NCBI RefSeq assembly: GCF_028275055.1
Contig: NZ_JAQCNJ010000023.1
Coordinates: 1 to 44,022, forward strand
Direction of reading: 5' to 3'
DNA: 44,022 nucleotides
From: Haloplanus sp.
Lineage (GTDB): Archaea > Halobacteriota > Halobacteria > Halobacteriales > Haloferacaceae
Each line of letters begins with the position of its first letter. Position 1 is the stretch's first letter. Below the pieces are notes generated by a model. That model made no database searches, was not told the DNA's origin, and worked only from the letters and a program-made list of their open reading frames with translations. Shown here in pieces: positions 7,149 to 41,393 of this stretch. The translations under genes were made by a program, and so were the position numbers.

Positions 7149-7172
7149 TCCCCGTGGGACCGACCGATGCCG

Positions 7173-7184
7173 GGGTGGTTTTTT
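7173..7184 (+). terminator. Oligo-T terminator
   Basis: GGGGTGG followed by TTTTTT (7179-7184), 30 bp after the stop of the preceding gene and 32 bp before the signal peptidase ATG, fits an archaeal T-rich terminator. Confidence 0.45.
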
Positions 7185-7215
7185 GTCGATCGGGTGCCAC
7201 AGTTCGATACGTCGA

Positions 7216-8370
7216 ATGAGGGTACGGCGAACGCTCAAACTCGGGGGTGAGGTGCTCGCCATCGTTCTCGTCGCCGCACTCATCGCCGGCCAGATTCTCG
7301 GATATCCCGTGTTGCTTGGATTCGTCGAAACCGGGAGCATGGAACCGACACTCGACCCCGGCGACGGGTTCGTGGCGATTCCGGCTGCCATCGACGGCGA
7401 TGTCGAAGAGGGCGACGTGGTCGTTTTCCGCGCCGAGCAGATCCAAGGTGGGGGGCTGACCACACACCGCGTCGTCGGGGAGACGGATCGGGGGTACGTT
7501 ACCCGCGGCGACGCCAACCCCTTCACCGACCAGGACGGCGGCGAACCGCCGGTCAAGAACGCACAGATCGTCGCCAAGGCGTGGCAGGTCGGCGGCGGTG
7601 TCGTCGTTATTCCACACCTTGGAACCGCGCTGATCGGCGTCCAAACCGCCATCACCGACACCCAACGCGTGGTCGCGTCGGTGACCGGGAGTCGGGCGTT
7701 GCTCGGCACGCAGGGGCTGACGTATCTGTTGCTCGCGCTCTCGGTGGCGTTGTACATCTTCGATCTGTTCGCGAGCGACGGGGATCGCGACCGGTCGCGG
7801 TCGCGGGACCGCGACGAGGGTATTTCGATGCGGCTTATTATCGGCGGTCTGGCGGCGCTGGTGGTCGTCACCGCGACGGCGGCGATGGTCGCCCCTGCGG
7901 GAACCCAGGAGTTCGGTGTCGTGAGTGCGGAGTTCGACTCGGAGAACCCGACCGTGATCAGACAGGGCGAGTCCGGGTCGATCACCTATCGCGTCCCCAA
8001 CGGCGGTCTGGTTCCGGTCGTCGTCTATCTCTCCCCGGAGAGCGAGGGGGTGACCACGGAACCGGAGCGGTTGTACGTCCCCGGCCAGTCGGCGGAGAAC
8101 GCGACGCTCACATTTTCTGCTCCACCGGAAACGGGGTTCTATCGCCGATACGTCGGCGAATACCGGTATCTCGCGATCCTACCGGCGTCGGTGATCGACG
8201 CCTCATACCGCGTCCATCCGTGGCTCCCGATCCTCATCATCGACGCCGTTATGGGCATCCCGTTCTACGTTTTCGGCATGTTCCTCGTGGGGACCGGGCA
8301 ACTTCGGTCCCGGTCCCGTGCCCGCGACAGTGTCTCGACGGTTCGCCGACTGCTGAACCGATACGGCTGA
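7216..8370 (+). CDS. Signal peptidase I, archaeal Ser-His type, with extra C-terminal domain
   Basis: A 384-residue protein. The N-terminal helix (residues ~11-35) is followed by the catalytic Ser41 in ETGSMEPTL, then GDVVVF, His84 in TTHRVV and Asp99 in TRGDAN. This is the Ser-His arrangement of archaeal, ER and SipW-type enzymes rather than Ser-Lys. Further helices lie around 165-185 and 205-225, then a beta-rich extracytoplasmic domain (YRVPNGGLVPVVVYLSPES) and a final helix near 335-360. It is about twice the size of a minimal archaeal signal peptidase, the second half being an added membrane/Ig-like domain. Clustered with TasA-like genes, it parallels bacterial SipW beside tasA/yqxM, so a dedicated processing role is inferred. 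Confidence 0.88.
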   Translation: MRVRRTLKLGGEVLAIVLVAALIAGQILGYPVLLGFVETGSMEPTLDPGDGFVAIPAAIDGDVEEGDVVVFRAEQIQGGGLTTHRVVGETDRGYVTRGDANPFTDQDGGEPPVKNAQIVAKAWQVGGGVVVIPHLGTALIGVQTAITDTQRVVASVTGSRALLGTQGLTYLLLALSVALYIFDLFASDGDRDRSRSRDRDEGISMRLIIGGLAALVVVTATAAMVAPAGTQEFGVVSAEFDSENPTVIRQGESGSITYRVPNGGLVPVVVYLSPESEGVTTEPERLYVPGQSAENATLTFSAPPETGFYRRYVGEYRYLAILPASVIDASYRVHPWLPILIIDAVMGIPFYVFGMFLVGTGQLRSRSRARDSVSTVRRLLNRYG

Positions 8371-8425
8371 CCGCGGGAGTGTGTTCCTCAAGATTCTTGT
8401 ACCGGAATACGAAAAGTAGTATCAC

Positions 8426-9664
8426 ATGTCACGGGAGTGGGGGGTGCGCGGTCGGATACTGCTGGGGCGATGGTTCGCCGCCGTGTTGTTGCTCGCGGTG
8501 GTCGTGGCCACACTCGGGGGCTACGCCACCTACACCGCGTACGAGTCCCCCGGAACGACAACGGAACAGCGGCAGGTATCGTCGTGGGAGGCAACCGGGA
8601 CATACGACGTGAGCGCGAGGGTGAGCGAACCGAACCCGTTGTACCCGGTCGACACCCAACTCGATGATCAACCGGCGTACTTCCTGTCGATAAGCCCGGT
8701 CGCCAGAGGGACGTTCGGGTTCGGGTATCAGGCGACCAACGGCGGAGATGTCGACGTGACGATCCAGCAGACGCTCGTCCTCCGGTCTGTCGATACACAA
8801 CAGACCGAGAACGGCGAGATGACCGTCGAGTACTGGCGGCTCACGGAACCGCTCGGTACCGAACGAGCGGCGGGTGTCAGTTCCGGTGAATCGGTCGAAC
8901 GCTCCTTCGAGCGAAACATCAGCGCGACGGCCGATCGGATGTCGACCGTCTCCGCGCAACTCGGCGGGACACCCGGCACGACGGAGATGCTCATCGTCTC
9001 GACCGTCGAGTTTCAAGGGACGGTCAACGGCAAGGAGGTCGACCGGACGACCACCTACCGTCTACCCATCGAGGTCGGTTCGACGACATACCGGCCTGGC
9101 TCGGTCGCCGGCGAGAATCCCGACGGATCGACGACCGAACTGGTCACCAGACAACGGACGTACGGCCCGCTCTACCGGATCGGCGGGCCTGTGGCGTTGT
9201 TGATCGGGCTGGTTGGCGTGGGTGCACTCGCCTACGGCCGGTACGACGGCCGCTTTGCCGTCTCCGAGGCCGAACGGGCGGCGCTCGAGTTCGAGTCGAC
9301 CCGCGAGGAGTTCGACGACTGGATCACGACCGCCCGTCTCCCGGAGGCCATCCGTGCCCGCCCCCGCGTTGAGGTCGAGTCGCTCGACGGACTGGTCGAC
9401 ACCGCCATCGACGTCGACGCTCGGGTGTTCGAGACACCGGAGCGAGACGCCTTCTACGTCGCCGACGACGGACTGTTGTACGCGTACGAACCCCCGACGG
9501 CGGGGTTGGACGGGATGCTCGGAGGCGATGCCGATTCGGATACCGAGACCGATCCGGATGCAGACGGCAACGGCGGAGACGACGCGGCCGACGGCGGGCG
9601 TTCTCCGGAGATAAATCTAGACCCCGACGCGGGCCCGGACGTGGACACAGACGACGACTCCTGA
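8426..9664 (+). CDS. DUF5305-type membrane protein
   Basis: A 412-residue protein with an N-terminal transmembrane helix (LLGRWFAAVLLLAVVVATLGGYATYTAY), a long beta-rich outer domain (about 45-235), a second helix (RIGGPVALLIGLVGVGALAYGRY) and a cytoplasmic region (ALEFESTREEFDDWITTARLP, then DVDARVFETPERDAFYVADDGLLYAYEPP). The order helix-ectodomain-helix-DUF5305 C-terminal segment agrees with haloarchaeal proteins found next to signal peptidase I. It ends in an acidic D/G-rich tail. It follows the signal peptidase by 55 bp and likely works with it, but no activity is known. The family name is recalled, not searched. Confidence 0.75.
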   Translation: MSREWGVRGRILLGRWFAAVLLLAVVVATLGGYATYTAYESPGTTTEQRQVSSWEATGTYDVSARVSEPNPLYPVDTQLDDQPAYFLSISPVARGTFGFGYQATNGGDVDVTIQQTLVLRSVDTQQTENGEMTVEYWRLTEPLGTERAAGVSSGESVERSFERNISATADRMSTVSAQLGGTPGTTEMLIVSTVEFQGTVNGKEVDRTTTYRLPIEVGSTTYRPGSVAGENPDGSTTELVTRQRTYGPLYRIGGPVALLIGLVGVGALAYGRYDGRFAVSEAERAALEFESTREEFDDWITTARLPEAIRARPRVEVESLDGLVDTAIDVDARVFETPERDAFYVADDGLLYAYEPPTAGLDGMLGGDADSDTETDPDADGNGGDDAADGGRSPEINLDPDAGPDVDTDDDS

Positions 9665-9714
9665 CAGCGGACGGGGGCGAAAGGGGTTTGGTCCTTACCT
9701 CCGTGGTAGTGGAT

Positions 9715-11505
9715 ATGTCCGACCTCGGCGATTTCACGGAGATGTCGGCCGACGATCCCGACGACGACGGTGACGGCGATTCGTCGGGCGCCTCGACAGT
9801 CGACGACTTCGAGACCTACGACGTCTCGCCGGCGGGGAGCGACCGTGGCCTCGGCTCAATCTCCGTCTCGAAAGGGCTCCGGGTCGCCGAGGACGGCGAC
9901 GACACGGCGCTCAAGGCCTTCGTGACCAGCGACAACCGGGAGTCGGTCCGCCTCGGCAAGTACGTGATCGTCCCCTACCCGGACGACGAGACGTTGTTCT
10001 GCCGGATCACCGCCTTGGAGTACGCCCAGGAGTTCGAAGCCGACGACGCGACCGAGATTCACGCCCGCCGTGCGATGCGCCGGGACGACTTTGCGGAACG
10101 GGACTACAAGTTCGTCGCGACGCTTGATCCCGTGGCCGTTCTTTTCACCGAGGGCGACGAGTTGAAACGGCGGCTGACCGACCGCGTTCCGAAACCCGGA
10201 TCGGTCGTCAGCGAGGCGACCGACGCGAGTCAGATCAAGACGGGACTGGCCATCCCGGCCGAAGGGGTCTTTCTCGGTCACCTCTCGGTCGGCGGCGAGA
10301 CGGTGCGAACGGCGGCGACGCCGCCGACGATCGGCTACCGGTTGAAAGACGACTACGCCGACGGCGACCCACTCGTCTTCCGCCACACCCTCATTGCCGG
10401 TGGGACGGGGTCGGGGAAAACCCACGCCTCGAAGAACGTTCTTCGGCAGTATCTCGACTCCGCGTACGCGATGGACGACGGGCGGGAGGCCAAAACGGCC
10501 GTCGTCCAGTTCGACCCGCAGGACGAGTACGCCCAGATGCACGATGACAACCCCGAGTTGGACGACGCGGCCCGGCGGCGCCTCAACCGGCAGGGGATCA
10601 CCCACGGCGGCCACGACGACACCGTTGCCCTCGTGCCGGAGATCGGCGGAGCGTCCTACGGCGGCGGGACCCACCGCGCCGAGCAGGTTCCGTTCACTGT
10701 TCCGTTCCGAATGGTCGAGCGGCGGCCGTGGCTCGTCGCCGGCGCCAGCCTCAACGACAACCAGTATCAGGCGCTCGACTACCTTCTCTCCCAGTTTTTC
10801 GACGACTACGGCGACAACGCCACGTACGACGCGTTCACCACCTACCTCGACGACCCGACGCTCCGGGAGGAACTCGACGAGTCGGGGCGGGTCCACGAGG
10901 CGACGTTCGACGCCGTGCGCCGGCGGGCACTCGGTAGTGCCTTCTCCCGGGTGTTCGACCGCGACGCCCGGCCGGTGACCGACCTGGTCCACGAACTCGT
11001 CCGTCCCGGCGGGCTGACGGTCGTTCCCACGTACCACGTCACCGACACCCGGGCCACGGAGTTGGTGGTGCTCGCCGTCGCCAGCCTGCTCGTCGACGAG
11101 AAACTGTCGAACGACCCGGACCACGACCGGATCAAGGAGACGCCACTCGTGGTCGGGATGGACGAGGCACACAACTTTCTGACCGACGCCGAGAGCGTTC
11201 AAGCCCGGAAGGTGATCGGAAAGTTCACCGAGGCGGCAAAGCAGGGCCGCAAGGAGCGACTCGGCCTCTTTCTCATCACGCAGGATCCACAGGATATCGC
11301 CGACTCGGTGTTCAAGCAGGTGAACACGAAACTGGTGCTCAACCTGGGCGACGAAAACGCCATCAGCAGCGTGAACATCCCGCCGAAACTGGAGGACAAG
11401 GTGCCGTACATGGAAAAAGGGCAGATGGTGGTGTACTCGCCGGACAACTCCGAGCCGGTCGAGTTGACGGGGCTGTCGACCTGCGTGACCCGACACGGGG
11501 AGTAA
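9715..11505 (+). CDS. HerA-like ATP-binding protein (DUF87 helicase/translocase)
   Basis: A 596-residue protein. After an acidic N-terminal ~50 residues comes a HerA/HAS-barrel-like domain (KYVIVPYPDDETLFCRITALEY). The Walker A is AGGTGSGKTHASK at about residue 227-239, preceded by a hinge with FRHTLI. The Walker B is LVVGMDEAHNF at about 478-488, and the late motif LGLFLITQDPQDI is typical of HerA. HerA proteins are hexameric DNA translocases that work with NurA in end resection, but this longer haloarchaeal paralogue lacks a neighbouring nurA or mre11/rad50 here. ATG 9715 (MSDLGDFTEM) was preferred to a TTG 27 bp upstream. Function beyond a DNA-translocating ATPase is inference. Confidence 0.85.
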   Translation: MSDLGDFTEMSADDPDDDGDGDSSGASTVDDFETYDVSPAGSDRGLGSISVSKGLRVAEDGDDTALKAFVTSDNRESVRLGKYVIVPYPDDETLFCRITALEYAQEFEADDATEIHARRAMRRDDFAERDYKFVATLDPVAVLFTEGDELKRRLTDRVPKPGSVVSEATDASQIKTGLAIPAEGVFLGHLSVGGETVRTAATPPTIGYRLKDDYADGDPLVFRHTLIAGGTGSGKTHASKNVLRQYLDSAYAMDDGREAKTAVVQFDPQDEYAQMHDDNPELDDAARRRLNRQGITHGGHDDTVALVPEIGGASYGGGTHRAEQVPFTVPFRMVERRPWLVAGASLNDNQYQALDYLLSQFFDDYGDNATYDAFTTYLDDPTLREELDESGRVHEATFDAVRRRALGSAFSRVFDRDARPVTDLVHELVRPGGLTVVPTYHVTDTRATELVVLAVASLLVDEKLSNDPDHDRIKETPLVVGMDEAHNFLTDAESVQARKVIGKFTEAAKQGRKERLGLFLITQDPQDIADSVFKQVNTKLVLNLGDENAISSVNIPPKLEDKVPYMEKGQMVVYSPDNSEPVELTGLSTCVTRHGE

Positions 11506-11558
11506 GCGGTCGGGGGCCGAACCGCTACGGTTTTGCCCTCGTCGCCATACATACTCAT

Positions 11559-12620
11559 ATGTCACTGGAACCGGAGCGCCGGGCCTTTCTCGACCGACTG
11601 CTGGAGACACCGAGTCCATCGGGGTTCGAAACCCGGGGACAACGCGTCTGGCTCGACTACGTCGAGCCGTTCGCCGACGAGGTGTGGACGGACGACTACG
11701 GCAACGCGGTTGCCGCCTACGAGGGCGGCGAGACGGAACTCGCTCTCGCCGGTCACGCCGACGAAATCGGGTTTATGATCCGCCGGATCGACGACGACGG
11801 CTTTCTCCGCATCGGCGCCATCGGCGGCGCGGATCGGACGGTCTCGAAGGGACAACACGTGACCGTCCACGCCGACGATGCGGTCGCCGGTGTCGTCGGC
11901 CAGACCGCGATCCACCTGCGCGACACCGGGGAGGAGAGTTACGACGACATCGGCGACCAGTACGTCGATATCGGCGCGACCGATCGCGAGGAGGCAGAAT
12001 CGCTGGTGTCGGTCGGTGACCCGGTGACGTTCTCGACAACGGTCGAGAGCCTCCACGGGTCGCGGTTGGCGGCCCGCGGGATGGACAACCGGATCGGCGT
12101 CTGGGCCGCCGCCGAGGGGTTGCGCCGCGCGGTCGAGGCCGGCGTCGACGCCACCGTCTACGCCGTCAGCACGATCCAGGAGGAGGTCGGACTGCAGGGG
12201 GCGCGGATGGTGGGGACCGACCTCGCGCCCGACGCCGCGGTGGCGGTGGACGTGACCCACGCGACCGACTCGCCGGGCGTGCCGGGCAAGCGCCGGGGGC
12301 CGGTCGAACTCGGCGGCGGCCCAGTCATCTCGCGGGGGAGCGCCAACCACCCGACGCTCGTCGCGCTGGCACAGTCTGCTGCCGAGGACGCCGGCGTCGA
12401 CGTGCAGGCCCAGGCCTCGGGGAGTCGCACCGGCACCGACGCCGACGCCTTCTACACGTCGAGCGGCGGGACGCCGGCGCTGAACATCGGTCTCCCGAAC
12501 CGCTACATGCACACGCCGGTTGAGGTGATCGACGAGACGGACCTCCGCGATTTGGCGGCGTTGCTCGGGCGGTTGGCGGACCGAGCGGGCGGTGTCGACT
12601 CCTTTGCCGTCGACGTGTGA
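11559..12620 (+). CDS. M42-family metal aminopeptidase (tetrahedral aminopeptidase type)
   Basis: A 353-residue cytoplasmic enzyme with the full M42 pattern. TPSPSGFE opens the family; LAGHADEIGFMI carries the first metal His/Asp; GMDNRIGVW carries the bridging Asp; STIQEEVGLQGARM carries the catalytic Glu pair; VAVDVTHATD carries a metal Asp; NRYMHTPVEVID carries the last metal His. Members are dodecameric Zn/Co aminopeptidases or deblocking peptidases that clear peptides released by the proteasome. The length is normal and no residue is missing. It lies 53 bp after the HerA-like gene; I see no functional link. Confidence 0.9.
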   Translation: MSLEPERRAFLDRLLETPSPSGFETRGQRVWLDYVEPFADEVWTDDYGNAVAAYEGGETELALAGHADEIGFMIRRIDDDGFLRIGAIGGADRTVSKGQHVTVHADDAVAGVVGQTAIHLRDTGEESYDDIGDQYVDIGATDREEAESLVSVGDPVTFSTTVESLHGSRLAARGMDNRIGVWAAAEGLRRAVEAGVDATVYAVSTIQEEVGLQGARMVGTDLAPDAAVAVDVTHATDSPGVPGKRRGPVELGGGPVISRGSANHPTLVALAQSAAEDAGVDVQAQASGSRTGTDADAFYTSSGGTPALNIGLPNRYMHTPVEVIDETDLRDLAALLGRLADRAGGVDSFAVDV

Positions 12621-26847: not shown

Positions 26848-28845
26848 ATGGGCTGCCCGTATCACAATGTGGGGGACAGGAGCGAAGCGGATTCCGACCA
26901 CTCCGAAGAGGCGAGCGACTCCGCAGACAGAGGCATCGAGCGCCGGTCGTTTATGAAGTCCGCGCTCGTCATCGGCGGAGCGAGTGCGTTGTCGACCATC
27001 ACGGGGTTGTACGGCGTGCCGTCAACGGTATCGGCCGACGGAGACGACCGGATCGGTGCCGCGGAGCGTGACAATCGCCAGCACGCTTGGGATGGGTTCG
27101 AAACGGACGTCTCGATAGGCGGTGTCTCGGCGCATCCTCGCCACCACGTGACGCTCCATCTCGACTACGCGAATGATGGGGCGCCGACCCCCGACGAGCG
27201 GACGGCCGTCGAAGGGGCGCTCCGTGAAATCGAGCGACACTTCGAGTGGAACAGCGAGGGCGTGTTGTTCACCATCGGGTACTCGCCGAACTACTTCGAC
27301 CGGTTCGAGGCGGACCTTCCGAAGGGGCTGAGCCCGAGTGGGAAGGTGGTGAAGCCGGCACTCCTCCGTCCGGGACAACTCATCGACACCCCGGGCGTGA
27401 CTCTCGACCACGAAACCCCGACACCCGACGAGGCGGAGGTTTGTCTCCATCTGGCCAGTAACAACGTCCAGAACATCATGGCCGTCGAGGGGCTGTTGTG
27501 GGGCGACCCCATCGACATGGACGTCTCGTTCGAACACACGTTCTCTGGAATCCTCGAAACGGCCGGGAGCGGGGGTGGGCGTCCAACCGAGTTCCCACAC
27601 CGACGGGTCGGGTTCTCCGGCAACGAAAACATCACTGAGAACCTTGAGGAGAACACCGACTTCGACTCGGGTCGGGTTCCGGACGACGCGGAGTTGATGA
27701 TGGGCTTCAACGACCTGTACCGGAACAGTATTCCCCGAGAGGACAACGCGACGATGTTAGAGGATCAGCAACTGGTCGAACCACACCCTCCGGGACAGTT
27801 CGCACAAGGGACGATCCAACACGTCTCCAAACTCGATATCGACCTCACCCGGTTCTACGACGACCACGACACCACCGGTCGGCGAGAACGGATGTTCTCG
27901 CCCGACCACGATGCCGAAAACACCGGTACGGTCGGTGAGAATCTCGGGGAAAGCAGCGCACCGGGCGACACCCCGATGCGAGATTTGGACGGCGAATCCG
28001 TGGACAAGGCAGAACAGGTCACCGACGACTACGAAAGCGAAGGCGTTGTCGGTCACGCACAGAAACTCGCCCGGGCGCGATTCGACCTCGAAACGCGGAT
28101 CACAGCGGAGGGCCGACAACGCCTGTCCGGCGGTGATCGTAACGAGTTACTGCCCGCCGAAGAACGCGACGACGAGTTGGCGGGACACGCCGGCGATCAG
28201 GAGGCCGAACAGGTCCTCCTCCGGCGCGACGTCACGAGTACCGATCAAGATACGCCGGGAAACCTATTCATCTCACTCATGCGGTTCAACCCGTACATGG
28301 CGTACATCCGGCAGGCCATGAACGGCGTCGAGTTCGACTCGGCCGGGTTCGGACTGACCGGCGAGGCCCGGATCCAGGACGAGGCCATCGGAGCCGGCCC
28401 GGACAGCGGTATCGTCAACTATCTCGACACCAAGCGCCGCGGGAACTACCTCGTCCCGCCGATCACGGCCCGGGCGCTCCCGTCTCCCCGGAGCGACGAG
28501 GTCGACATCACGGTCAAGCATGCCGGCGAGAACTACAACGTGACCGTCAACGGAGTCACGGCCGGTGACCTCGAAGACGGCTCCGTTCGGTTCGGCTGGT
28601 TCTACGACGTGAATCGGGCACGCGGAGCCGACCCACGACAGGTAAGCCAGCGCGGTAACCGAACGACGTTCACCTTCTCCGCCGCCGAGACCGAAATCGA
28701 CACGGCACCCGGTGGTTCCGACGGTGATGTTCGGGTCCGCTTGTTCGCCAAGCGAGAGGACGGTGGCAGGCCCGTTCGCGGGACGGCCACGGTCCACCCT
28801 GGCACAACAGGCTCGAAAGGGCGGTCGAAAGGTAAGGGGAGGTGA
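26848..28845 (+). CDS. Tat-exported DyP-type peroxidase-like protein
   Basis: A 665-residue protein with a Tat leader (ERRSFMKSALVIGGASAL, RR at 32-33) ending near VSADGDD. The order of DyP-peroxidase landmarks is visible: HHVTLHLDYAND at 99-110; GFNDLYRN at 286-293 in place of GxxDG, keeping the catalytic Asp; a segment KLDIDLTRFYDDHDTTGRRERMF; a His at 403 (VVGHAQK) where DyP has its proximal haem ligand; LLRRD at 457-461; FISLMRF at 474-480; and NYLDTKRRGNYLVPP near 524 like the C-terminal NYIxxxGSxxFxVPP. It then has a beta-rich C-terminal extension (~555-650) and a basic GSKGRSKGKGR end. Longer than usual DyPs (300-500 residues). Haem binding and peroxidase activity are inferred. Confidence 0.65.
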   Translation: MGCPYHNVGDRSEADSDHSEEASDSADRGIERRSFMKSALVIGGASALSTITGLYGVPSTVSADGDDRIGAAERDNRQHAWDGFETDVSIGGVSAHPRHHVTLHLDYANDGAPTPDERTAVEGALREIERHFEWNSEGVLFTIGYSPNYFDRFEADLPKGLSPSGKVVKPALLRPGQLIDTPGVTLDHETPTPDEAEVCLHLASNNVQNIMAVEGLLWGDPIDMDVSFEHTFSGILETAGSGGGRPTEFPHRRVGFSGNENITENLEENTDFDSGRVPDDAELMMGFNDLYRNSIPREDNATMLEDQQLVEPHPPGQFAQGTIQHVSKLDIDLTRFYDDHDTTGRRERMFSPDHDAENTGTVGENLGESSAPGDTPMRDLDGESVDKAEQVTDDYESEGVVGHAQKLARARFDLETRITAEGRQRLSGGDRNELLPAEERDDELAGHAGDQEAEQVLLRRDVTSTDQDTPGNLFISLMRFNPYMAYIRQAMNGVEFDSAGFGLTGEARIQDEAIGAGPDSGIVNYLDTKRRGNYLVPPITARALPSPRSDEVDITVKHAGENYNVTVNGVTAGDLEDGSVRFGWFYDVNRARGADPRQVSQRGNRTTFTFSAAETEIDTAPGGSDGDVRVRLFAKREDGGRPVRGTATVHPGTTGSKGRSKGKGR

Positions 28846-29098: not shown

Positions 29099-30787
29099 TT
29101 ACTCTTCTTCCTGTTCTTCCTGTTCTTCCTCTTCCTCTTCCTCTCGTTCTTCTTCCTGTTCTTCCTGTTCTTCCTCTTCCTCTCGTTCTTCTTCCTGTTC
29201 TTCCTGTTCTTCCTCTCGCTCCTCTCGTTCGTCCAGGACGTCAGCTCTGACGAGTGAGCCGTCGCTGATGCCGTATGTCTCCTCGAGTTCGAACTCGCCT
29301 TTCGTGACCGCAAGTTCTACCTCGTCGACAGCGGCGGTATCGATTACGAACGTCGCCACCCCGTCGGCCCCGGTCTCGGCGACCTGTCGGCCGTTCACCG
29401 AGACGGAGGCATCTTTGACACCCTCCCCAGCGTGGGCGATGGTCGTGGTCACGGTTCCGGTTTCGTTGTCGAGTTGTGAATCAAGCTCCACGTTCTCCAC
29501 CGACCGCGTCTCCTCCTCGACATCGAGGTCGATATCGAGCGAGCCTTCGGCCTCGCCACGACGGGCGGACAGTTCAGCATCGTCGTCGGCCGGAAGCGTC
29601 ACCGCCACCGTTCCTTTCTCGTCGGTCTCTCCGACGACCCGCTCGTTCAGACGAACGGTCGCGTTCGGTACCGGATCGCCGCCGCCGGCGGCTCTGACGA
29701 CTATTTCCTCCCCGGGTGCCGGGGTTCCGTCTGCGATGACCAGCGCCAGTTCGCGGTCCTCGAAGCCGGCAGTCCGAGCGTCATCCGACTCCGTGTCCGG
29801 TCGGTCGTCGCGCTCGATTTCGGATTCGAGTTCGAACACCTCTCCGGACGACGCGTCGACGCTCACCTCGGCCTCGCCAGTGGCGGCCGTCGTGTTCCCC
29901 AGGGCGAAGGCGAATTCGTAGCTCCCGTCACCTCGCTCCACCGTCGACTCGACGAGTGTCCACCTCGTGTTGTCGGGTGCCGACAGCGCAGACCGTGCCG
30001 TTCGAAGCGCGTCCGCCTGTGAGATGCGCACACTGTTGTCTCCGTCACGCGGGCGCTCGAACTCGCGGGCCCGCTCGCCATCCTCGTTGTACGCCTCGAT
30101 CGAGAGGCCATCCCGGATCTCAAGCTCGAGTTCACCCTCCGACGTGCCGGTGTACTGGCTACGTAGTGTGTTCAGGCCGGGACCGGTAACCGTGTCCAAA
30201 CGCTCGACGGTCGCCTCGAGACTCGTGAGGTTGACACCGGCGGTCTGGAGGTCGAATCTCGAGGTGTTCGAACTCACCCGCTCGAAGCGTTGATAGCTGT
30301 TCTGCACGCTCGATGCACGGACGTTGAGCAACGCAAGTCGCTGTGCGTATTCCGATCTCGTCAGGTTCCCTGCACGGTACGCCGCCGTTACCGTCCGGTA
30401 CTCGGTCAGGATGGACTCGGACCGGGTCCGAAGCTCCCTCGCACGGTCGGCCATGATGTCGGCTCTGGCCGTCGCATTGGCATCCGCCAGCGTCGCCGTG
30501 AACGCGCTTTCCTCGTAGTCGGTCTGTACCTTGCTACTCGACGCGCCGATGATCGTCGAGAGTTGTTGACCGACGGTCGCGTTCACCGAACCGTCCACCG
30601 AGCCGTTCGTCGTGTCGTCACTCGCCGCCGCCTCCGCAGCAGTCACGTCGACCGTGGCTCGGGACGGTACGTCCTGAGTCTGCTCTCGTTCTGTGGCAAG
30701 CACCGCCGCCGAGGGCTGCACCGTCACAAGAGCCACAATCAACAGGGCCACGGCTGCGGTTCGCCTCACTGTGCCATTCGTATCCAT
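29099..30787 (-). CDS. Exported DUF7096/DUF7094-like protein with Ig-like domain and Glu-rich tail
   Basis: A 562-residue protein from the ATG at 30787 (MDTNGTVRRTAAVALLIVALV signal peptide). An all-helical region (~60-190, ARADIMADRARELRTRSESILTEYRTV) is typical of haloarchaeal DUF7096. A PepSY-like part follows (ISQADALRTARSALSAPDNTRWTLV, then GEAEVSVDASSGEVFELE), then Ig/carboxypeptidase-regulatory-like domains (PVPNATVRLNERVVGETDEKGTV and VKDASVSVNGRQVAETGADGVATF), then a ~40-residue Glu/Arg/Gln tail. TTTAAG on the minus strand at 30814-30820 lies 28 bp upstream, so the start is leaderless. Divergent from the winged-helix membrane protein at 30988, a pairing I recall from other haloarchaea. 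Function unknown. Confidence 0.75.
   Translation of the reverse strand: MDTNGTVRRTAAVALLIVALVTVQPSAAVLATEREQTQDVPSRATVDVTAAEAAASDDTTNGSVDGSVNATVGQQLSTIIGASSSKVQTDYEESAFTATLADANATARADIMADRARELRTRSESILTEYRTVTAAYRAGNLTRSEYAQRLALLNVRASSVQNSYQRFERVSSNTSRFDLQTAGVNLTSLEATVERLDTVTGPGLNTLRSQYTGTSEGELELEIRDGLSIEAYNEDGERAREFERPRDGDNSVRISQADALRTARSALSAPDNTRWTLVESTVERGDGSYEFAFALGNTTAATGEAEVSVDASSGEVFELESEIERDDRPDTESDDARTAGFEDRELALVIADGTPAPGEEIVVRAAGGGDPVPNATVRLNERVVGETDEKGTVAVTLPADDDAELSARRGEAEGSLDIDLDVEEETRSVENVELDSQLDNETGTVTTTIAHAGEGVKDASVSVNGRQVAETGADGVATFVIDTAAVDEVELAVTKGEFELEETYGISDGSLVRADVLDEREEREEEQEEQEEEREEEEEQEEQEEEREEEEEEEQEEQEEE
29102..29230 (-). repeat. Glu/Gln/Arg-coding low-complexity tract
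   Basis: On the minus strand the codons are almost all GAA/GAG with scattered CAG and CGA/CGT, giving units like REEEEEQEEQEEE. The block is a near-repeat of about 39 bp (EEREEEEEQEEQE). It forms the C-terminus of the preceding gene. Confidence 0.8.
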
Positions 30788-30987
30788 GTACACGTCCATT
30801 GCGTACACGTGAACTTAAACAGGCCAGATCATGTACCCGAATTTCGGCGAAATTCACGGTTCGGGCCGACTTAGAACGTCTTTGCCCGCGCTTATTGGCG
30901 TGATCGTGGCCCCGTGTCCCGGGTTCCGGACGGTGAAATCAAGGGTTATATGATGTTCCCGGCCAAGTTTATGTCGTTGGTCCAACT

Positions 30988-33161: not shown

Positions 33162-36100
33162 ATGCAAGCTAGCGACGATCAGCAAGAGGCATCACAATCC
33201 AGCCAAGACAGCGACGAGACACAGGGGGAGTCGCAGTCCAGGCGGGAGTTCATGGCGACAACGGGCGCGTTGTCCGCCGGATACGCTCTCAGCGATCAGC
33301 TGAAGGTCAGCGATCAGTTCCGTCAGCGGGACGGGTCCGATGCGGCAGACGGGGAAGACGACCACGATCATCCCGTCAGGAAGTTCACGGTCCACGCGAT
33401 TCAGGTGGACATCGTGTTCAACAAGATGGGCCTGCACCAGCCCAACGGCGCGATGTACGTTCTCGAGGAGAACCTCGAGGCGGCGCGACGGGCCTCGGGT
33501 GTGCTCCCGGGTGAGCCGTGGGAGGCGCTCGAGGACGACGAGAACTCGTACAACTACAAGCAGGACTCCGGGCCGGACACCGATCCACAGGAGGGCAGGG
33601 GGAACATCGACCCCCGTTACGACTCCGCGAACTCGGATCCGAAACAGCCAAACACCGGCGACGAGCCCGAACCCGACGTACCGATCGACACGACGGTCAT
33701 CGAACCGCTCGTCATCCGGGCGAACAAAGGCGAGATGGTCGAAGTTGAATTCGTCAACCATCTCGACAATCCCGCGTCGATGCACCAGACGGGACTCCCG
33801 CAGGACCCGAAGAAGTCCGACGGGATGAACGTCGGGAACAACCCGAGCAGCATCGCACAGCCGGGCGAGTCCGTGACCTACCGGTGGTACGCCGCACACA
33901 AGGGCGGGCACTTCTTCTACGACGGTGCCCATCAGGGGTACAAAAGCCCCGACACGAAGGCCGCGTACGCCAACAACCTCTCGCGAGGGCTGTTCGGCAC
34001 GCTCGTCGTCGAACCGGAGGGTGCGACCTGGACCGATCCGGAGACGGGCGGTCCGCTTCGGAGCGGCACGAGGGCCGACATCCACGACCCCGACTACATG
34101 GAGCAGAGCTACCGCGAGTTCGTGCCCCACTACTACAGTCCGTCCGGGGTCTACCTCCAGAACGGCGAGCCAAAGACGTGGCCGGAGTACCCGGACCAGA
34201 AGCAGGGCGTCCACGCCGTCAACTACGTCGCGGAGGGGACGGGAACCCGGGTCAACGACGAGTACGCGGGTGCGATCGAACGCCTGTTCTACTCCTCGTG
34301 GCCAAACGGCGACCCGGGCGGGGACGGAAACGGCGTCTTCGAGGCGTACAAAGGCGACGCGATCAAGTTCGTCTCGGTGAGTGCCTCCCTCGAGGAGAAC
34401 CACATCCACCACTGCCACAACGTTCGGTGGAAAACCGTTCCGACGCGAACCGACTCCGACACCATCGACTCACAGACGATCGGTCTCGGAGCCGCGTATC
34501 CGCAGTACCTGATCGCAGCCCACGGAAGTCACAGCGCGACCGACTACCACGACGAGGAAACGACCGTCCGCCCGGACATGGGCTTCAAGGAGGCGTTCAG
34601 CAAGGGTGGTGCCGGATACGTCCACGGCGGTGCGGGTGACATCCTGTTCCACTGTCACCTCTTCCCCCACTACGAGGTGGGGATGTGGTCGTTCATGCGG
34701 GTCCACGACAAGGAGCAGCCACACCTCCAGAAGCTGCCCGGAACGAACGTCGTCGACAACCCGGACCCCGCGAACCTCCCGCTTCAGGACGGTATCGTCG
34801 GGGCCGATTCGGGTGTTCCGGGCTTCCCGAACTACGTCCCGGGAATGAAAGGGTACTTCGCTCCGAAGCCCATCACGCCGAACGGACGGAGCCCGACCCA
34901 GCGAGAAGCACAGGCAGGCTTCGACGACGAGATTGCCGGCGCGCCGTATCAGGATCCGGCGTCGCCGTTGGACAGCGATCCGCCGGCGGCGGATCGTGAC
35001 CACCAGATCCACGTGCTCGACTACAACGAGGTCGGAGAGGTCGTCTACAACGACCAAGGCGATTACGACGACGAGCCACTGCTCTACGTCCACGAAAACG
35101 ACGTCGAGGAGGCTCGTAACGGCGACATCAACCCCGAACCGTTGTTCGTCAGGGCAAACGTCGGTGAGGTCGTGAACATCACCGTGGTCAACGAGTCGGA
35201 CTTCCCGGTGTCGATCCACCCACACTTCATCGGCTTCGACAACACGGCCACGGACTCGACACCCAGCATCGGGTACAACACCGAACAGTCCGTCGAACCC
35301 GGCCAAGAGCGGACGTTCCGCTGGTACTGTGACGAGGAGGGTTCGATCTACTTCCACGACCACGCGGTCGCCGCAAAGGAAGGCATGCACGGCACCTTCG
35401 CCGGACTGATCGTCGAACCCGAAGGCTCGCGCCACCTCGACCCGTACAACGGCGAGGAGATCGAAAGCGGGGCCCAGGCCATCATCGAGGTGCCCAACGG
35501 GACCGACTTCCGCGAGTTCGGCCTCCACTACAGCGACTACACGCAGGTCAAGGACCGCGAGGACGACCAGTACGTCAACCAGCAGTACGAGTACAAGCAG
35601 AACCTCGGTCTCACCTCGATCAACAACCGGAACGCGCCGTACTTCCACCGCGATGACGAGGACCCCGCGTACCTCCACAGTTCGGCGGTCCACGGCGACC
35701 CGGCGACGCCGTTGCTCGAGGCCTACGAGAACGATCCGATCCGGATCCGCCTGTTCCAGGGTGCCTGGGAGGAGCAACACAACTTCCGGATCACCGGCCG
35801 AGAGATCCAGCCAGAGGGACTCCAGGAGTCGGACACGGTCACCCAGATCATCAGTCCGGCCGAGGCGTTCACCTTCATGCTCGATCCGAAACGGCCGAGT
35901 GACAAGCAGGACTCCTTCGAACGGGTCGACAACCCGGACGGACTGCCGGTTCAGGACCACCTGTACGGCTCGGGCGTTGCGGACGACCTGTACACCGGAA
36001 TGTGGGGCATTCACCGCACGTTCGGTGCGGAGGTGCCACACCTCGAACCGCTCCCCGACAGGGGTGCGCCGAACGGCCGGATCGACGACAACCAACTCGA

Positions 36101-38396
36101 AGAGATGGGCCACTCGGCACCGTTTATCGGTATCGACCGATTCAAAGAGGAGGGCCAGCGCGCCCGTCTCCGGTGGACCGAGGACGACAACCGCGAACTG
36201 CCGCCGGACTCGGCCGAACGGCGCAACGAGAACATCGGTCAGCGACCGCCAAAGCCGGAGACGCCCGGCCAGCCCTGTGGCGCGGACTCGCCGGACCGCA
36301 AGTTCGAGGTCGTTGCCCACGAGGCCGACATCGAGTTCAACGAGTACGGCGATCACGACCCCAACGGGATCGTGTTCTCGCTCGAACGGTACTGGCAGGC
36401 AAAGGCAAACGGCGACAGGCAGGCCGATCCGCTCACGCTCCGTGCGAACCGTGGTGACTGCATCGAGGTGACGGTCCGGAACGAGCTTCCGGAGGACATC
36501 GAGCACAACCACGTCGAACCGCCGATGCGGGCAGAGGAGTCCGTCAACTCCGAGAAGTACCCCGACGAGAAGACGTACTCGGCCGTGACGGGTCCGTACG
36601 ACACGTGGGAGGTTTCGAACCGCGTCTCCCTGCATCCGGAACGGATCGAGTACGACGAAACCGCCTCGACCGGGGTGACGGTCGGGTTCAACTACGACCA
36701 GACGGTCGCTCCCGGCGAGACGATCACGTACCGGTGGTACGCAAACGAGCTCTACGACAATATGGTGTTGACCGACTTCGCCGACGTGCGCGGCCACCGA
36801 CACCACGGCGCGTACGGCAACCTGGTCATCGAGCCAGAGGGAGCGACGTGGATCGACCAGACCACGGCCGAACCGCTCCCCGAGGGTGTCGACGCCATCG
36901 TCGCGCCGCCAAACGGCGAGGCGACCCGCGAGTACACCGTGTCGATGAGCGACGGCCGGTACATGATCAACCGGGACGACCCCGAGTGGTGTGTCGTGCC
37001 CGGAGACAAGCACGGCAATCAGCCGTGTAACGCCATCGGCGGCTTCGAGGACAGCGGCCACCTCGCGATCAACAACCGCGCGGAGCCGTTCACCCGCCGG
37101 CTGGAGGACGGACCACAGCACAAGGTGTTCGACTCGGACACGCACGGTGACCCGGCGACGCCGGTGTTCCGTGCGCTGACCGGTGACAACGTGAAGTTCC
37201 TCGTCCACCAGCCCGCCGACAAGGCCCGTGGCATGGCGTTCCACCTGTCGGGTCACCAGTGGCCCCGATACCGTGGCATTCCGGAGGCACCGGTGGTCGG
37301 TGTCGACGACCGGTTCAGCCCCGGCAAGGGCGCGAGACTCGGTCTGACATCCGGTGCCGGCGGACACATGGAAGCGACCGGCGATTACATCTTCCAGGAA
37401 ACGAAACAACGCCGCCGACTCGAATCCGGTGCGTGGGGTATCTTCCGGGTGCAGGACAATCCGGGCGACTTCGAGACCCCGCTCCAGCCGCTTCCGGCCG
37501 CGGGTTCGATCACCGGCAGCGGGCGGAATCAGGGATCGGCGTACCGCCGTCCCGAACAGCGTCCGAACTGGAACGTGATTCGAGGGGACTTCGTCGGCGA
37601 CACGGATGTCGAAGACGTGATCGTCGGCGTGCCCAACAGTAACGTCGGCGCCAAAAACGCGGGCGCGGTGTACATCTTCGAGGACCTCGAGGAAGACGAG
37701 GAACTCGAAGAACTCTCGGACGCGGATCTGGTGTTGCTCGGCAGCGAGGCGGGCCAGCAACTCGGTACGCGGCTCGAGATCCAAGCGCCCGGCGAGTCCA
37801 AGCGGTTCGGCAACGGCACCGCAAACCAGAACGTCCCGGTTCTGGGGATGTACACGGCCTCCGGTCAGGTCATGACCGTGCGGGGCGGTGAAGAGGCGCT
37901 TGACGAGATCGAGAACCCGACGGACACCAAGTCCCGGCGGTTCGTCAAGGGCACGACGGAGAACACGATCAACGCGGTCCGCGAGGCCGAACACGTCGAG
38001 GACGACTACGAGCGCGAGGTCGAAGAGGAGCCCGAAGACGAGGACGAGGAAGAAGAGGAAGAAGAAGAGGCAGAAGAACAAGAGGAAGAGGCAGAAGAAC
38101 AAGAGCAGGAGCAAGAGGAAGCAGAAGAGGAAGCGCAGGAAGACGACGAAGCGCAGGAAGACGACGAAGCGCAGGAAGACGGTGACGACGGCGGCCGTGG
38201 CGGAAACCGGCGGCGCGCATCGCGCGCGTCGGACACCGAGGCGTCACGCAGCCACGTCGGCTTCCTCCAGTGCTCCGACTGCGGTCAAAAGAGCGCGGTG
38301 ACCGGCGACGCGAGCCTCTGGGAGCGCGTCGACACCGCCGAATCGGCCTTCGAATGCACGGCCTGTGGAAGCGTCGAGGAGGACACCACGCTCTAA
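33162..38396 (+). CDS. Giant six-cupredoxin multicopper oxidase, Tat-exported, Mn-oxidase-like
   Basis: A 1744-residue protein from the ATG at 33162, with Tat motif QSRREFMATTGAL (RR 27-28). Three repeats of two cupredoxin domains each follow (starts near KFTVHAIQVDIVFN, HQIHVLDYNEVGEV and KFEVVAHEADIEFN). Copper motifs: HIHHCH 414-419 (H-x-x-H-x-H) and HCHLFPHYEVGM 497-508 (T1 Cys498, His503, Met508) in repeat 1; HPH 686-688 and HDH 732-734 in repeat 2; repeat 3 has lost them. Then an FG-GAP-like unit (GDFVGDTDVEDVIVGVPNS), a Glu-rich tract and a terminal zinc ribbon (CSDC...CTAC). Size and layout recall bacterial MnxG/MofA Mn oxidases. An ATG at 33051 is possible but would bury the Tat motif at residue 64. 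Confidence 0.85.
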   Translation: MQASDDQQEASQSSQDSDETQGESQSRREFMATTGALSAGYALSDQLKVSDQFRQRDGSDAADGEDDHDHPVRKFTVHAIQVDIVFNKMGLHQPNGAMYVLEENLEAARRASGVLPGEPWEALEDDENSYNYKQDSGPDTDPQEGRGNIDPRYDSANSDPKQPNTGDEPEPDVPIDTTVIEPLVIRANKGEMVEVEFVNHLDNPASMHQTGLPQDPKKSDGMNVGNNPSSIAQPGESVTYRWYAAHKGGHFFYDGAHQGYKSPDTKAAYANNLSRGLFGTLVVEPEGATWTDPETGGPLRSGTRADIHDPDYMEQSYREFVPHYYSPSGVYLQNGEPKTWPEYPDQKQGVHAVNYVAEGTGTRVNDEYAGAIERLFYSSWPNGDPGGDGNGVFEAYKGDAIKFVSVSASLEENHIHHCHNVRWKTVPTRTDSDTIDSQTIGLGAAYPQYLIAAHGSHSATDYHDEETTVRPDMGFKEAFSKGGAGYVHGGAGDILFHCHLFPHYEVGMWSFMRVHDKEQPHLQKLPGTNVVDNPDPANLPLQDGIVGADSGVPGFPNYVPGMKGYFAPKPITPNGRSPTQREAQAGFDDEIAGAPYQDPASPLDSDPPAADRDHQIHVLDYNEVGEVVYNDQGDYDDEPLLYVHENDVEEARNGDINPEPLFVRANVGEVVNITVVNESDFPVSIHPHFIGFDNTATDSTPSIGYNTEQSVEPGQERTFRWYCDEEGSIYFHDHAVAAKEGMHGTFAGLIVEPEGSRHLDPYNGEEIESGAQAIIEVPNGTDFREFGLHYSDYTQVKDREDDQYVNQQYEYKQNLGLTSINNRNAPYFHRDDEDPAYLHSSAVHGDPATPLLEAYENDPIRIRLFQGAWEEQHNFRITGREIQPEGLQESDTVTQIISPAEAFTFMLDPKRPSDKQDSFERVDNPDGLPVQDHLYGSGVADDLYTGMWGIHRTFGAEVPHLEPLPDRGAPNGRIDDNQLEEMGHSAPFIGIDRFKEEGQRARLRWTEDDNRELPPDSAERRNENIGQRPPKPETPGQPCGADSPDRKFEVVAHEADIEFNEYGDHDPNGIVFSLERYWQAKANGDRQADPLTLRANRGDCIEVTVRNELPEDIEHNHVEPPMRAEESVNSEKYPDEKTYSAVTGPYDTWEVSNRVSLHPERIEYDETASTGVTVGFNYDQTVAPGETITYRWYANELYDNMVLTDFADVRGHRHHGAYGNLVIEPEGATWIDQTTAEPLPEGVDAIVAPPNGEATREYTVSMSDGRYMINRDDPEWCVVPGDKHGNQPCNAIGGFEDSGHLAINNRAEPFTRRLEDGPQHKVFDSDTHGDPATPVFRALTGDNVKFLVHQPADKARGMAFHLSGHQWPRYRGIPEAPVVGVDDRFSPGKGARLGLTSGAGGHMEATGDYIFQETKQRRRLESGAWGIFRVQDNPGDFETPLQPLPAAGSITGSGRNQGSAYRRPEQRPNWNVIRGDFVGDTDVEDVIVGVPNSNVGAKNAGAVYIFEDLEEDEELEELSDADLVLLGSEAGQQLGTRLEIQAPGESKRFGNGTANQNVPVLGMYTASGQVMTVRGGEEALDEIENPTDTKSRRFVKGTTENTINAVREAEHVEDDYEREVEEEPEDEDEEEEEEEEAEEQEEEAEEQEQEQEEAEEEAQEDDEAQEDDEAQEDGDDGGRGGNRRRASRASDTEASRSHVGFLQCSDCGQKSAVTGDASLWERVDTAESAFECTACGSVEEDTTL
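38016..38190 (+). repeat. Glu/Gln/Asp-coding low-complexity tract in the oxidase gene
   Basis: GAAGAGGAAGAAGAG-type triplets encode EEEEEEAEEQEEEAEEQ, ending in three copies of the 15 bp unit for AQEDD (about 38135-38180). It joins the FG-GAP-like part to the terminal zinc ribbon. Confidence 0.8.
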
Positions 38397-40100: not shown

Positions 40101-41393
40101 ATGTCAGGATCGCTGAAAGCAAGTGCCGCAGTCGCCGCAATAGTGTTGCTCGTCGCCGGTAGTGCGGGCGCACTGGGACCGGGACTCGGGGCGTCTGATG
40201 GAGTCATGGCGGATCACGACGCGGAGTACAGCCAATCAGCATCGCCGGTGGATGATGCGGATGTCGACGCGACGCTGGCGAACGGGACGGTGACGCTCAC
40301 GCTCGTCGATGAGTCCGATGGTGCTGGTGTCGCAAACGCCAGTGTCGAAGTGAACCGCGAGTACCACCAGCAGTACAACAATAGAACCGCGAACGCCCTC
40401 CAGCACAACTACGAGGCCGAGTACAACGAGGATCGATACCACGAACACGAACACGAAAACGCGTACCAGCACAAACACGAGTACGAGGAAGAGGGCGAAT
40501 ACGGCGCTGACGAGTACGAGCACAACTACGAGGGCGCGTACAGCGGAAGCCGGTACCACGAACACGAACACGAAAACGCGTACCAGCACAAACACGAGTA
40601 CGAGTACGAACACGAAGGCGAGTACGAGAACGAACACGAGAACGAGAACGAATACAACCGCGTCGGCACGACCGGAACGAACGGAACGATTTCGTTCGCT
40701 CTCAGTCCCAACGAGACGCGAAACGTCACCGAACTCGAAGTCGAACTGGTGAAAGGCGCGTTCAACGCCGAGATCAAGTACGACGTCGAGAACGGCTCGC
40801 TCTCCCTCATCAGCGAGGAGTACGAGTACCAGCAAGCGGAACAAGAGGAGTACGAGGAAGCGGAGTACCAGGAAGGGTACAACAACGGGACACAGTACAA
40901 CGAGAGCGAGCGGATGAGTATCGGCCTGCTTGACGCCCGTGATATCGCGGATGCGGCCCTCAGCGAGCCGCCGCAGGGCGAGTGGCGGCTGGTTGAGGGT
41001 GATGCCCACGAAGAGAGCAACTACTACGAGTTCGAGTACGTTCTCATCAATGCCAGCTACCCCGGTGAGGCCGAGATTCGGGTCGACGGCAGTAGCGGCG
41101 ATGTGATCAAGTACGAACAAGAAATCGAGTTCGAAGAAGCGGAAGAAGAAGAGGAAGAAGAACGCGAGCAAGAAGAGGAAGAAGAACGCGAGCAAGAAGA
41201 GGAAGAAGAGGAACGCGAAGAAGAAGAGGAACGCGAAGAGGAAGAAGAGGAAGAAGAGGAACGCGAAGAAGAAGCGGAAGAAGAAGAGGAACGCGAAGAA
41301 GAAGCGGAAGAAGAAGAGGAACGCGAAGAGGAAGAAGCGGAAGAAGAAGAGGAACGCGAAGAAGAGGAAGAAGAGGAAGAAGAGGAAGAGTAG
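40101..41393 (+). CDS. Exported His/Glu/Tyr-rich PepSY-like protein with poly-Glu tail
   Basis: A 430-residue protein. The signal peptide is MSGSLKASAAVAAIVLLVAGSAGA. An Ig/carboxypeptidase-regulatory-like start (DATLANGTVTLTLVDESDGAGVANASVEVN) is interrupted by ~90 residues built of a duplicated 39-residue block with RYHEHEHENAYQHKHEYE, giving dozens of His/Glu/Tyr side chains suited to metal binding. The Ig part resumes (GTTGTNGTISFALSPNE), then a PepSY-like domain (ISIGLLDARDIADAAL-type, WRLVEGDAH, GEAEIRVDGSSGDVIKYEQEIEFEE) and a ~85-residue Glu/Arg tail to the stop. Domain order parallels the protein at 30787-29099, so the two are distant paralogues. Metal binding is inferred from composition. 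Confidence 0.75.
   Translation: MSGSLKASAAVAAIVLLVAGSAGALGPGLGASDGVMADHDAEYSQSASPVDDADVDATLANGTVTLTLVDESDGAGVANASVEVNREYHQQYNNRTANALQHNYEAEYNEDRYHEHEHENAYQHKHEYEEEGEYGADEYEHNYEGAYSGSRYHEHEHENAYQHKHEYEYEHEGEYENEHENENEYNRVGTTGTNGTISFALSPNETRNVTELEVELVKGAFNAEIKYDVENGSLSLISEEYEYQQAEQEEYEEAEYQEGYNNGTQYNESERMSIGLLDARDIADAALSEPPQGEWRLVEGDAHEESNYYEFEYVLINASYPGEAEIRVDGSSGDVIKYEQEIEFEEAEEEEEEEREQEEEEEREQEEEEEEREEEEEREEEEEEEEEREEEAEEEEEREEEAEEEEEREEEEAEEEEEREEEEEEEEEEE
40403..40612 (+). repeat. 117 bp tandem duplication (39 codons)
   Basis: CACAACTACGAGG at 40404 recurs at 40521, and a ~50-base identical segment starting TACCACGAACACG occurs at 40437 and 40554, both exactly 117 bp apart. The identity is nearly complete over the core, so the duplication is recent or homogenised. 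Confidence 0.85.
41130..41393 (+). repeat. Glu/Arg-coding low-complexity tract
   Basis: GAAGAAGAGGAACGC-type units encode EEEEERE, including consecutive copies of a 30 bp unit (EEEEEREEEA). The tract runs to the stop codon of the gene. Confidence 0.85.

Follow-up and report, generated by a model that had tools for sequence, protein, structure and literature searches.

A predicted MnxG-type six-cupredoxin multicopper oxidase of the haloarchaeon Haloplanus

Laccases and ceruloplasmin carry the four copper motifs of multicopper oxidases in the order A-B-C-D. The product of a long open reading frame (ORF) in Haloplanus sp. differs in that its motifs follow the order C, D, A, B, and the locus therefore raises the question of whether this chain represents a truly permuted, new architecture or an archaeal member of a kind already known, and of which substrate such an enzyme would oxidise. 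The window referred to here is the whole stretch of DNA analysed, 44,022 nucleotides of contig NZ_JAQCNJ010000023.1; the genome containing it measures 2.31 Mb and is 79% complete.

The gene, its product and its relatives

The ORF begins with an ATG at 33162 and translates into 1744 residues. The sequence HIHHCH begins at residue 414 and HCHLFPHYEVGM at 497, followed by IHPH from 685 (providing H686 and H688) and FHDH from 731 (providing H732 and H734); the four motifs thus lie in the translated ORF exactly where the initial annotation had placed them (414–419, 497–508, 686–688, and 732–734). The features are as follows, with domain limits in the protein being approximate.

33162..38396, + strand: predicted MnxG-type six-cupredoxin multicopper oxidase, 1744 aa (translation; 9bxa MnxG, E 3.5e-161; Pfam Cu-oxidase_3, E 5.5e-23)
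33240..33245, + strand: codons of the twin arginine R27-R28 in a Tat-like signal, in which SRREFM precedes an Ala/Gly-rich stretch (sequence reading)
33783..33785, + strand: H208, domain 1, at the type-2 ligand position that corresponds to H686 (His in all 33 haloarchaeal rows)
34401..34418, + strand: motif C, HxxHxH, residues 414–419, domain 2 (motif positions; alignment)
34650..34685, + strand: motif D, HCHxxxHxxxxM, residues 497–508, domain 2 (motif positions; alignment)
35217..35225, + strand: motif A, HxH, residues 686–688, domain 3 (motif positions; alignment)
35355..35363, + strand: motif B, HxH, residues 732–734, domain 3 (motif positions; alignment)
37242..37244, + strand: H1361, domain 6, at the type-2 ligand position that corresponds to H417 (His in all 33 haloarchaeal rows and in 9bxa MnxG)
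37944..38177, + strand: Glu-rich tail, limits approximate (sequence reading)
38271..38366, + strand: C-terminal CxxC...CxxC ribbon, residues 1704–1735 (3 of 30 rows)

The Tat signal is a motif reading, since the Pfam TAT_signal model matches three of the 17 aligned family members and not the Haloplanus protein itself; on the strength of this Tat-like signal, the oxidase is probably exported. A 301-residue piece from the last repeat of the protein matches MnxG of PDB 9bxa at 77–354, 528–783, and 924–1206, which supports a layout of three repeats of two cupredoxins each, and thus of six predicted domains. AlphaFold2, run from two input sequences, returned a model with a mean pLDDT of 27.9.

In a phmmer search of solved structures, the nearest to the Haloplanus protein is the MnxG of 9bxa (E 3.5e-161), which, judging by its length, is probably that of Bacillus sp. 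PL-12; two-domain laccases rank next, at 5.9e-10 and below in rank, and ceruloplasmin matches at E 0.04. The alignment with the 9bxa chain is colinear throughout: the three two-domain repeats correspond, and the copper motifs occupy the same order and the same domains in 9bxa and in the MnxG of a Priestia megaterium plasmid (33% identity over 99% of a 1384-residue query). These two differ from the Haloplanus protein, whose linkers are longer and which has a Tat-like signal and around 300 extra residues at its C-terminus. The suggestion of an archaeal relative of MnxG made in the initial annotation is thereby borne out by sequence. Twenty-two plasmid records contain a match, 14 of them with a single place that spans 80% or more of the 1384-residue query; the best five are haloarchaeal (44%–49% identity) and the next four are from P. 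megaterium (33%). The MnxG of Pseudomonas mosselii (locus L006) shares the motif order and 24% identity in its best segment, over residues 171–1447, but is 1950 aa long, contains large inserts, and lacks equivalents of H208 and H1361.

Against the NCBIfam MnxG equivalog NF041487 (1894 positions), the Haloplanus protein scores 171.8 bits (E 1.1e-50), short of the cut-off of 3100 bits, and it would accordingly be classed as a homologue outside that equivalog. By homology, the haloarchaeal oxidase is an archaeal member of the known MnxG kind and does not represent a novel type. Among haloarchaea, PMC3600357 (2013) lists Hlac_1576 and Htur_3146 as archaeal MnxG-like six-domain proteins with their site between domains 2 and 3.

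Motif order and copper ligands

Pattern matching places the starts of motifs C, D, A, and B at 280, 333, 526, and 573 in Priestia MnxG and at 484, 538, 948, and 1052 in Pseudomonas MnxG. A truly permuted, new architecture has in its favour the departure of the Haloplanus order from that of laccases and ceruloplasmin, yet the same order recurs in both bacterial enzymes and, position by position, in the aligned homologues, and the domains of the Haloplanus chain are colinear with those of MnxG. The arrangement is, moreover, in print: for the bacterial six-domain oxidases that it analysed and for archaeal ones, PMC3600357 locates the trinuclear site between domains 2 and 3, and it attributes the pattern to the other two sites, 1/6 and 4/5, having been lost, whilst PMC8218464 reports that two Pseudomonas oxidases share their four-motif order with McoA and MnxG of P. 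putida GB-1. The colinear match and the published arrangement together lead to rejection of a new architecture, the probability of which is negligible. The order C-D-A-B is thus a rule of the family, the already known and ordinary MnxG-type layout; the chain is not permuted, its active interface being 2/3 instead of 6/1, one of three equivalent interfaces. The novelty that the initial annotation had seen in the motif order is removed because MnxG has the same one, and its tentative suggestion that MnxG might share that order proved correct. In itself, therefore, the motif order changes nothing.

Conservation was assessed in an alignment of the Haloplanus protein with 29 rows from the 31 haloarchaeal loci fetched, to which three named plasmid proteins were added, giving 33 rows. 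Not included were L083, a partial copy of 918 aa, and L076, which is split over two frames; L077 and L091 are represented by their longest frame only, and L087, the same place as L071, was used once. Eleven of the 22 plasmid matches were fetched (H1, H2, H4, H5, H7, H10, and H12–H16); of the remainder, H3 coincides with L064 in record length and position, and ten were not used. All 12 copper ligands are invariant in the 33 haloarchaeal rows, and the motifs are thus not due to chance. Among eight bacterial homologues, seven ligand positions are kept in all eight, H497, C498, H499, and H734 in seven, and M508 in six. The homologue on a Pseudonocardia plasmid (L090, 1489–5259, + strand) is without equivalents of H497, C498, H499, M508, and H734 in the alignment, and this copy may be inactive or devoid of a copper site because several ligands are absent. 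The two haloarchaeal copies omitted above lie at 7171–12047 (L076) and 8359–11112 (L083).

Two acidic residues beside the type-1 histidines are conserved as well: E412, two residues before H414, is kept in 33/33 haloarchaeal and 7/8 bacterial rows, and D436 in 33/33 and 8/8. By analogy with ferroxidases, these are possible candidates for metal-entry residues. In 9bxa MnxG, an alanine within HCHLYPAFGIGM (residue 340 by count) stands where the Haloplanus protein has H503, presumably as an engineered H340A mutation; Priestia MnxG has a histidine there, and no difference between MnxG and the archaeal proteins is claimed at this position.

For a comparison of the three interfaces, odd domains were aligned with odd and even with even in the 33 rows. 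Ceruloplasmin has its trinuclear cluster at domains 1/6, whereas the Haloplanus protein retains only two type-2 histidines there and no trinuclear site of the ceruloplasmin type: H208 and H1361 fall precisely on type-2 ligand positions in this alignment and are histidines in all 33 haloarchaeal rows, and the remaining ten ligand positions are occupied by non-ligands in the Haloplanus protein. Single ligands persist in a few relatives, for example a histidine at the H732 equivalent in 4 of 33. The earlier statement that the third repeat has no copper motif holds in that no complete set is present, but H1361 in domain 6 qualifies it. Interface 4/5 has no such pair, H1158 being present in 27 of the 33 rows and its partner position being variable. 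A histidine occupies the H208 position in three of the eight bacterial homologues and the H1361 position in none. Restriction of H1361 to haloarchaea, considered on this basis, was dropped because the 9bxa chain has histidines at both positions, the latter within HTFHLH. Residual ligands at 1/6 are noted in general terms in PMC3600357. The histidine pair could form a lone two-His metal site at this interface.

Substrate and partner proteins

The reading preferred here, albeit with some reserve, is that of an exported six-cupredoxin MnxG-type multicopper oxidase, which most likely oxidises Mn(II) at the domain 2/3 site. By homology to solved MnxG, the six domains would close into a ring like that of ceruloplasmin, in which even and odd domains meet at three equivalent interfaces (2/3, 4/5, and 6/1) and the full active site is kept at 2/3 only: the type-1 ligands fall in domain 2 and the trinuclear ligands are split over domains 2 and 3. 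Going by the known roles of the motifs in multicopper oxidases, the metal ion, most likely Mn(II), would donate electrons singly to the type-1 copper of domain 2 (H414, C498, H503, and M508), from which the H497-C498-H499 bridge would carry them to a trinuclear cluster held by H417, H419, H497, and H499 of domain 2 and H686, H688, H732, and H734 of domain 3; this cluster would then reduce O2 to water.

With MnxG as the closest relative that has been characterised, Mn(II) is considered the likeliest substrate. From the previous proposal of an archaeal Mn(II) oxidase, the kinship with MnxG stands on sequence homology, and Mn(II) as the substrate is only what we infer. In Bacillus, both the overexpression and the activity of MnxG depend on MnxE and MnxF (PMC5622069). 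Two small ORFs directly upstream of mnxG in the Priestia record match 9bxa MnxE (E 2.7e-27) and MnxF (E 1.8e-17), and both Priestia proteins were used as queries against the 26 haloarchaeal carrier genomes, with the Priestia plasmid as a control. The control was recovered at 1.4e-62 and 5.7e-67, but none of the 26 genomes, among them the 79% complete Haloplanus genome, yielded a convincing homologue of either, the best match being E 0.09 in one genome per query (G206 and G029). Very diverged partners are possible, as are partners in the missing fifth of the Haloplanus genome.

Since MnxE and MnxF appear to be missing, some probability falls to Fe(II) or Cu(I) as the physiological substrate of the same fold and active site, the protein then serving in metal handling as a ferroxidase or cuprous oxidase, with Mn(II) as a side substrate or no substrate at all. 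The six-domain relatives ceruloplasmin, hephaestin, and algal Fox1 are ferroxidases, the first two sharing the six cupredoxin domains (PMC3600357), and among five annotated neighbourhoods Priestia has a CopC-like gene and Halomarina a ferritin-like gene; these neighbours are, however, not conserved, and the closest solved relative in sequence is MnxG, with ceruloplasmin far behind, which makes a Fe(II) or Cu(I) enzyme rather unlikely. Lower still is the probability of a laccase-like oxidase of organic compounds that shares only the scaffold of MnxG: two-domain laccases do rank next after MnxG, but their matches cover one or two domains only, whereas the six-domain architecture follows MnxG throughout, and this reading is thus improbable.

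Returning to the preferred MnxG-type Mn(II) oxidase, a more specific version can be put forward tentatively, in which the enzymes of a haloarchaeal clade would oxidise Mn(II) on their own, with no MnxE/MnxF hexamer, and would keep a second, lone type-2-like metal site at H208/H1361. Should a haloarchaeal MnxG oxidise Mn(II) without MnxE and MnxF, the oxidase's own role would become separable from the contribution of its partners and, if true, this would point to the formation of archaeal Mn oxides in brines. Among the matches listed for literature on archaea or haloarchaea with multicopper oxidase, Mn oxidation, or MnxG, titles and abstract openings name no tested haloarchaeal MnxG. In the portions available, PMC10367259 reports mnxG in six bacterial genomes, with moxA also in three archaeal ones, and PMC11252502 describes a search of bacterial bins only.

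Distribution, C-terminal tail and neighbouring genes

Across the class, 391 genomes were compared, and 24 of them besides the window's own have matches below E 1e-100. One culturable carrier is Halalkalicoccus jeotgali B3 (HACJB3_RS15735). The genus itself is otherwise represented by 11 genomes, none of which contains such an oxidase; their best match (2.7e-7) covers a single domain. The closest rows, L053 and L054 (identities of 71% and 70% in the part that matches), both come from another family. This patchy distribution suggests horizontal transfer; at a third-position GC of 0.84, against 0.67–0.82 in seven nearby ORFs, the gene is not obviously foreign. A tree built by a quick method joins the Haloplanus protein with L053 and L054 (support 100) and holds the haloarchaeal rows together (100); Streptomyces is placed next to these rows, on a very long and uncertain branch. 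The 76 pattern matches in viral contigs include no relative, and the same kind of scan of genome contigs gave a single one, from Pseudomonas, probably owing to low-complexity patterns among those chosen.

The CxxC...CxxC ending is found only in the Haloplanus protein, L053, and L054 (3 of 30 aligned rows), and the Pfam TFIIB-type ribbon matches it at E 0.012, below the cut-off. The Glu-rich stretch before the ribbon is the Haloplanus protein's own, L053 and L054 being Gly/Asn-rich there. Pfam FG-GAP matches after domain 6 in six of 17 aligned members and not in the Haloplanus protein. Glu-rich low-complexity tails occur in the products of three genes within 12 kb, namely the oxidase gene (33162–38396, +), 29099–30808 (−), which encodes a DUF7096 protein, and 40101–41393 (+), the product of which also contains His/Glu/Tyr-rich repeats and has no Pfam match.

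No conserved operon emerged when 35 window ORFs (candidate gene models, oxidase excluded) were compared with the 31 relative loci by tblastn at E 1e-6, the only match being a generic ABC-transporter ATPase in 3 of 31. When the ORFs of the relatives were compared with one another, the most widespread cluster, of a regulator-like protein, reached 8 of 31 loci, probably through the abundance of such proteins; there is no shared neighbourhood that points to manganese. Two further twin-arginine proteins lie near these oxidases. One is encoded at 26848–28845 (+) of the window and belongs to DUF7405 (Pfam E 1.4e-78), with no solved relative at E 1 or better by phmmer. The other, at L072 4511–6139 (+), has homologues at L068 15243–16761 and L055 3238–4768, carries Gln/Asn/Ala-rich repeats reminiscent of those of curli-type amyloids, has no Pfam match, and is found within 19 kb of the oxidase in three of the 31 loci.
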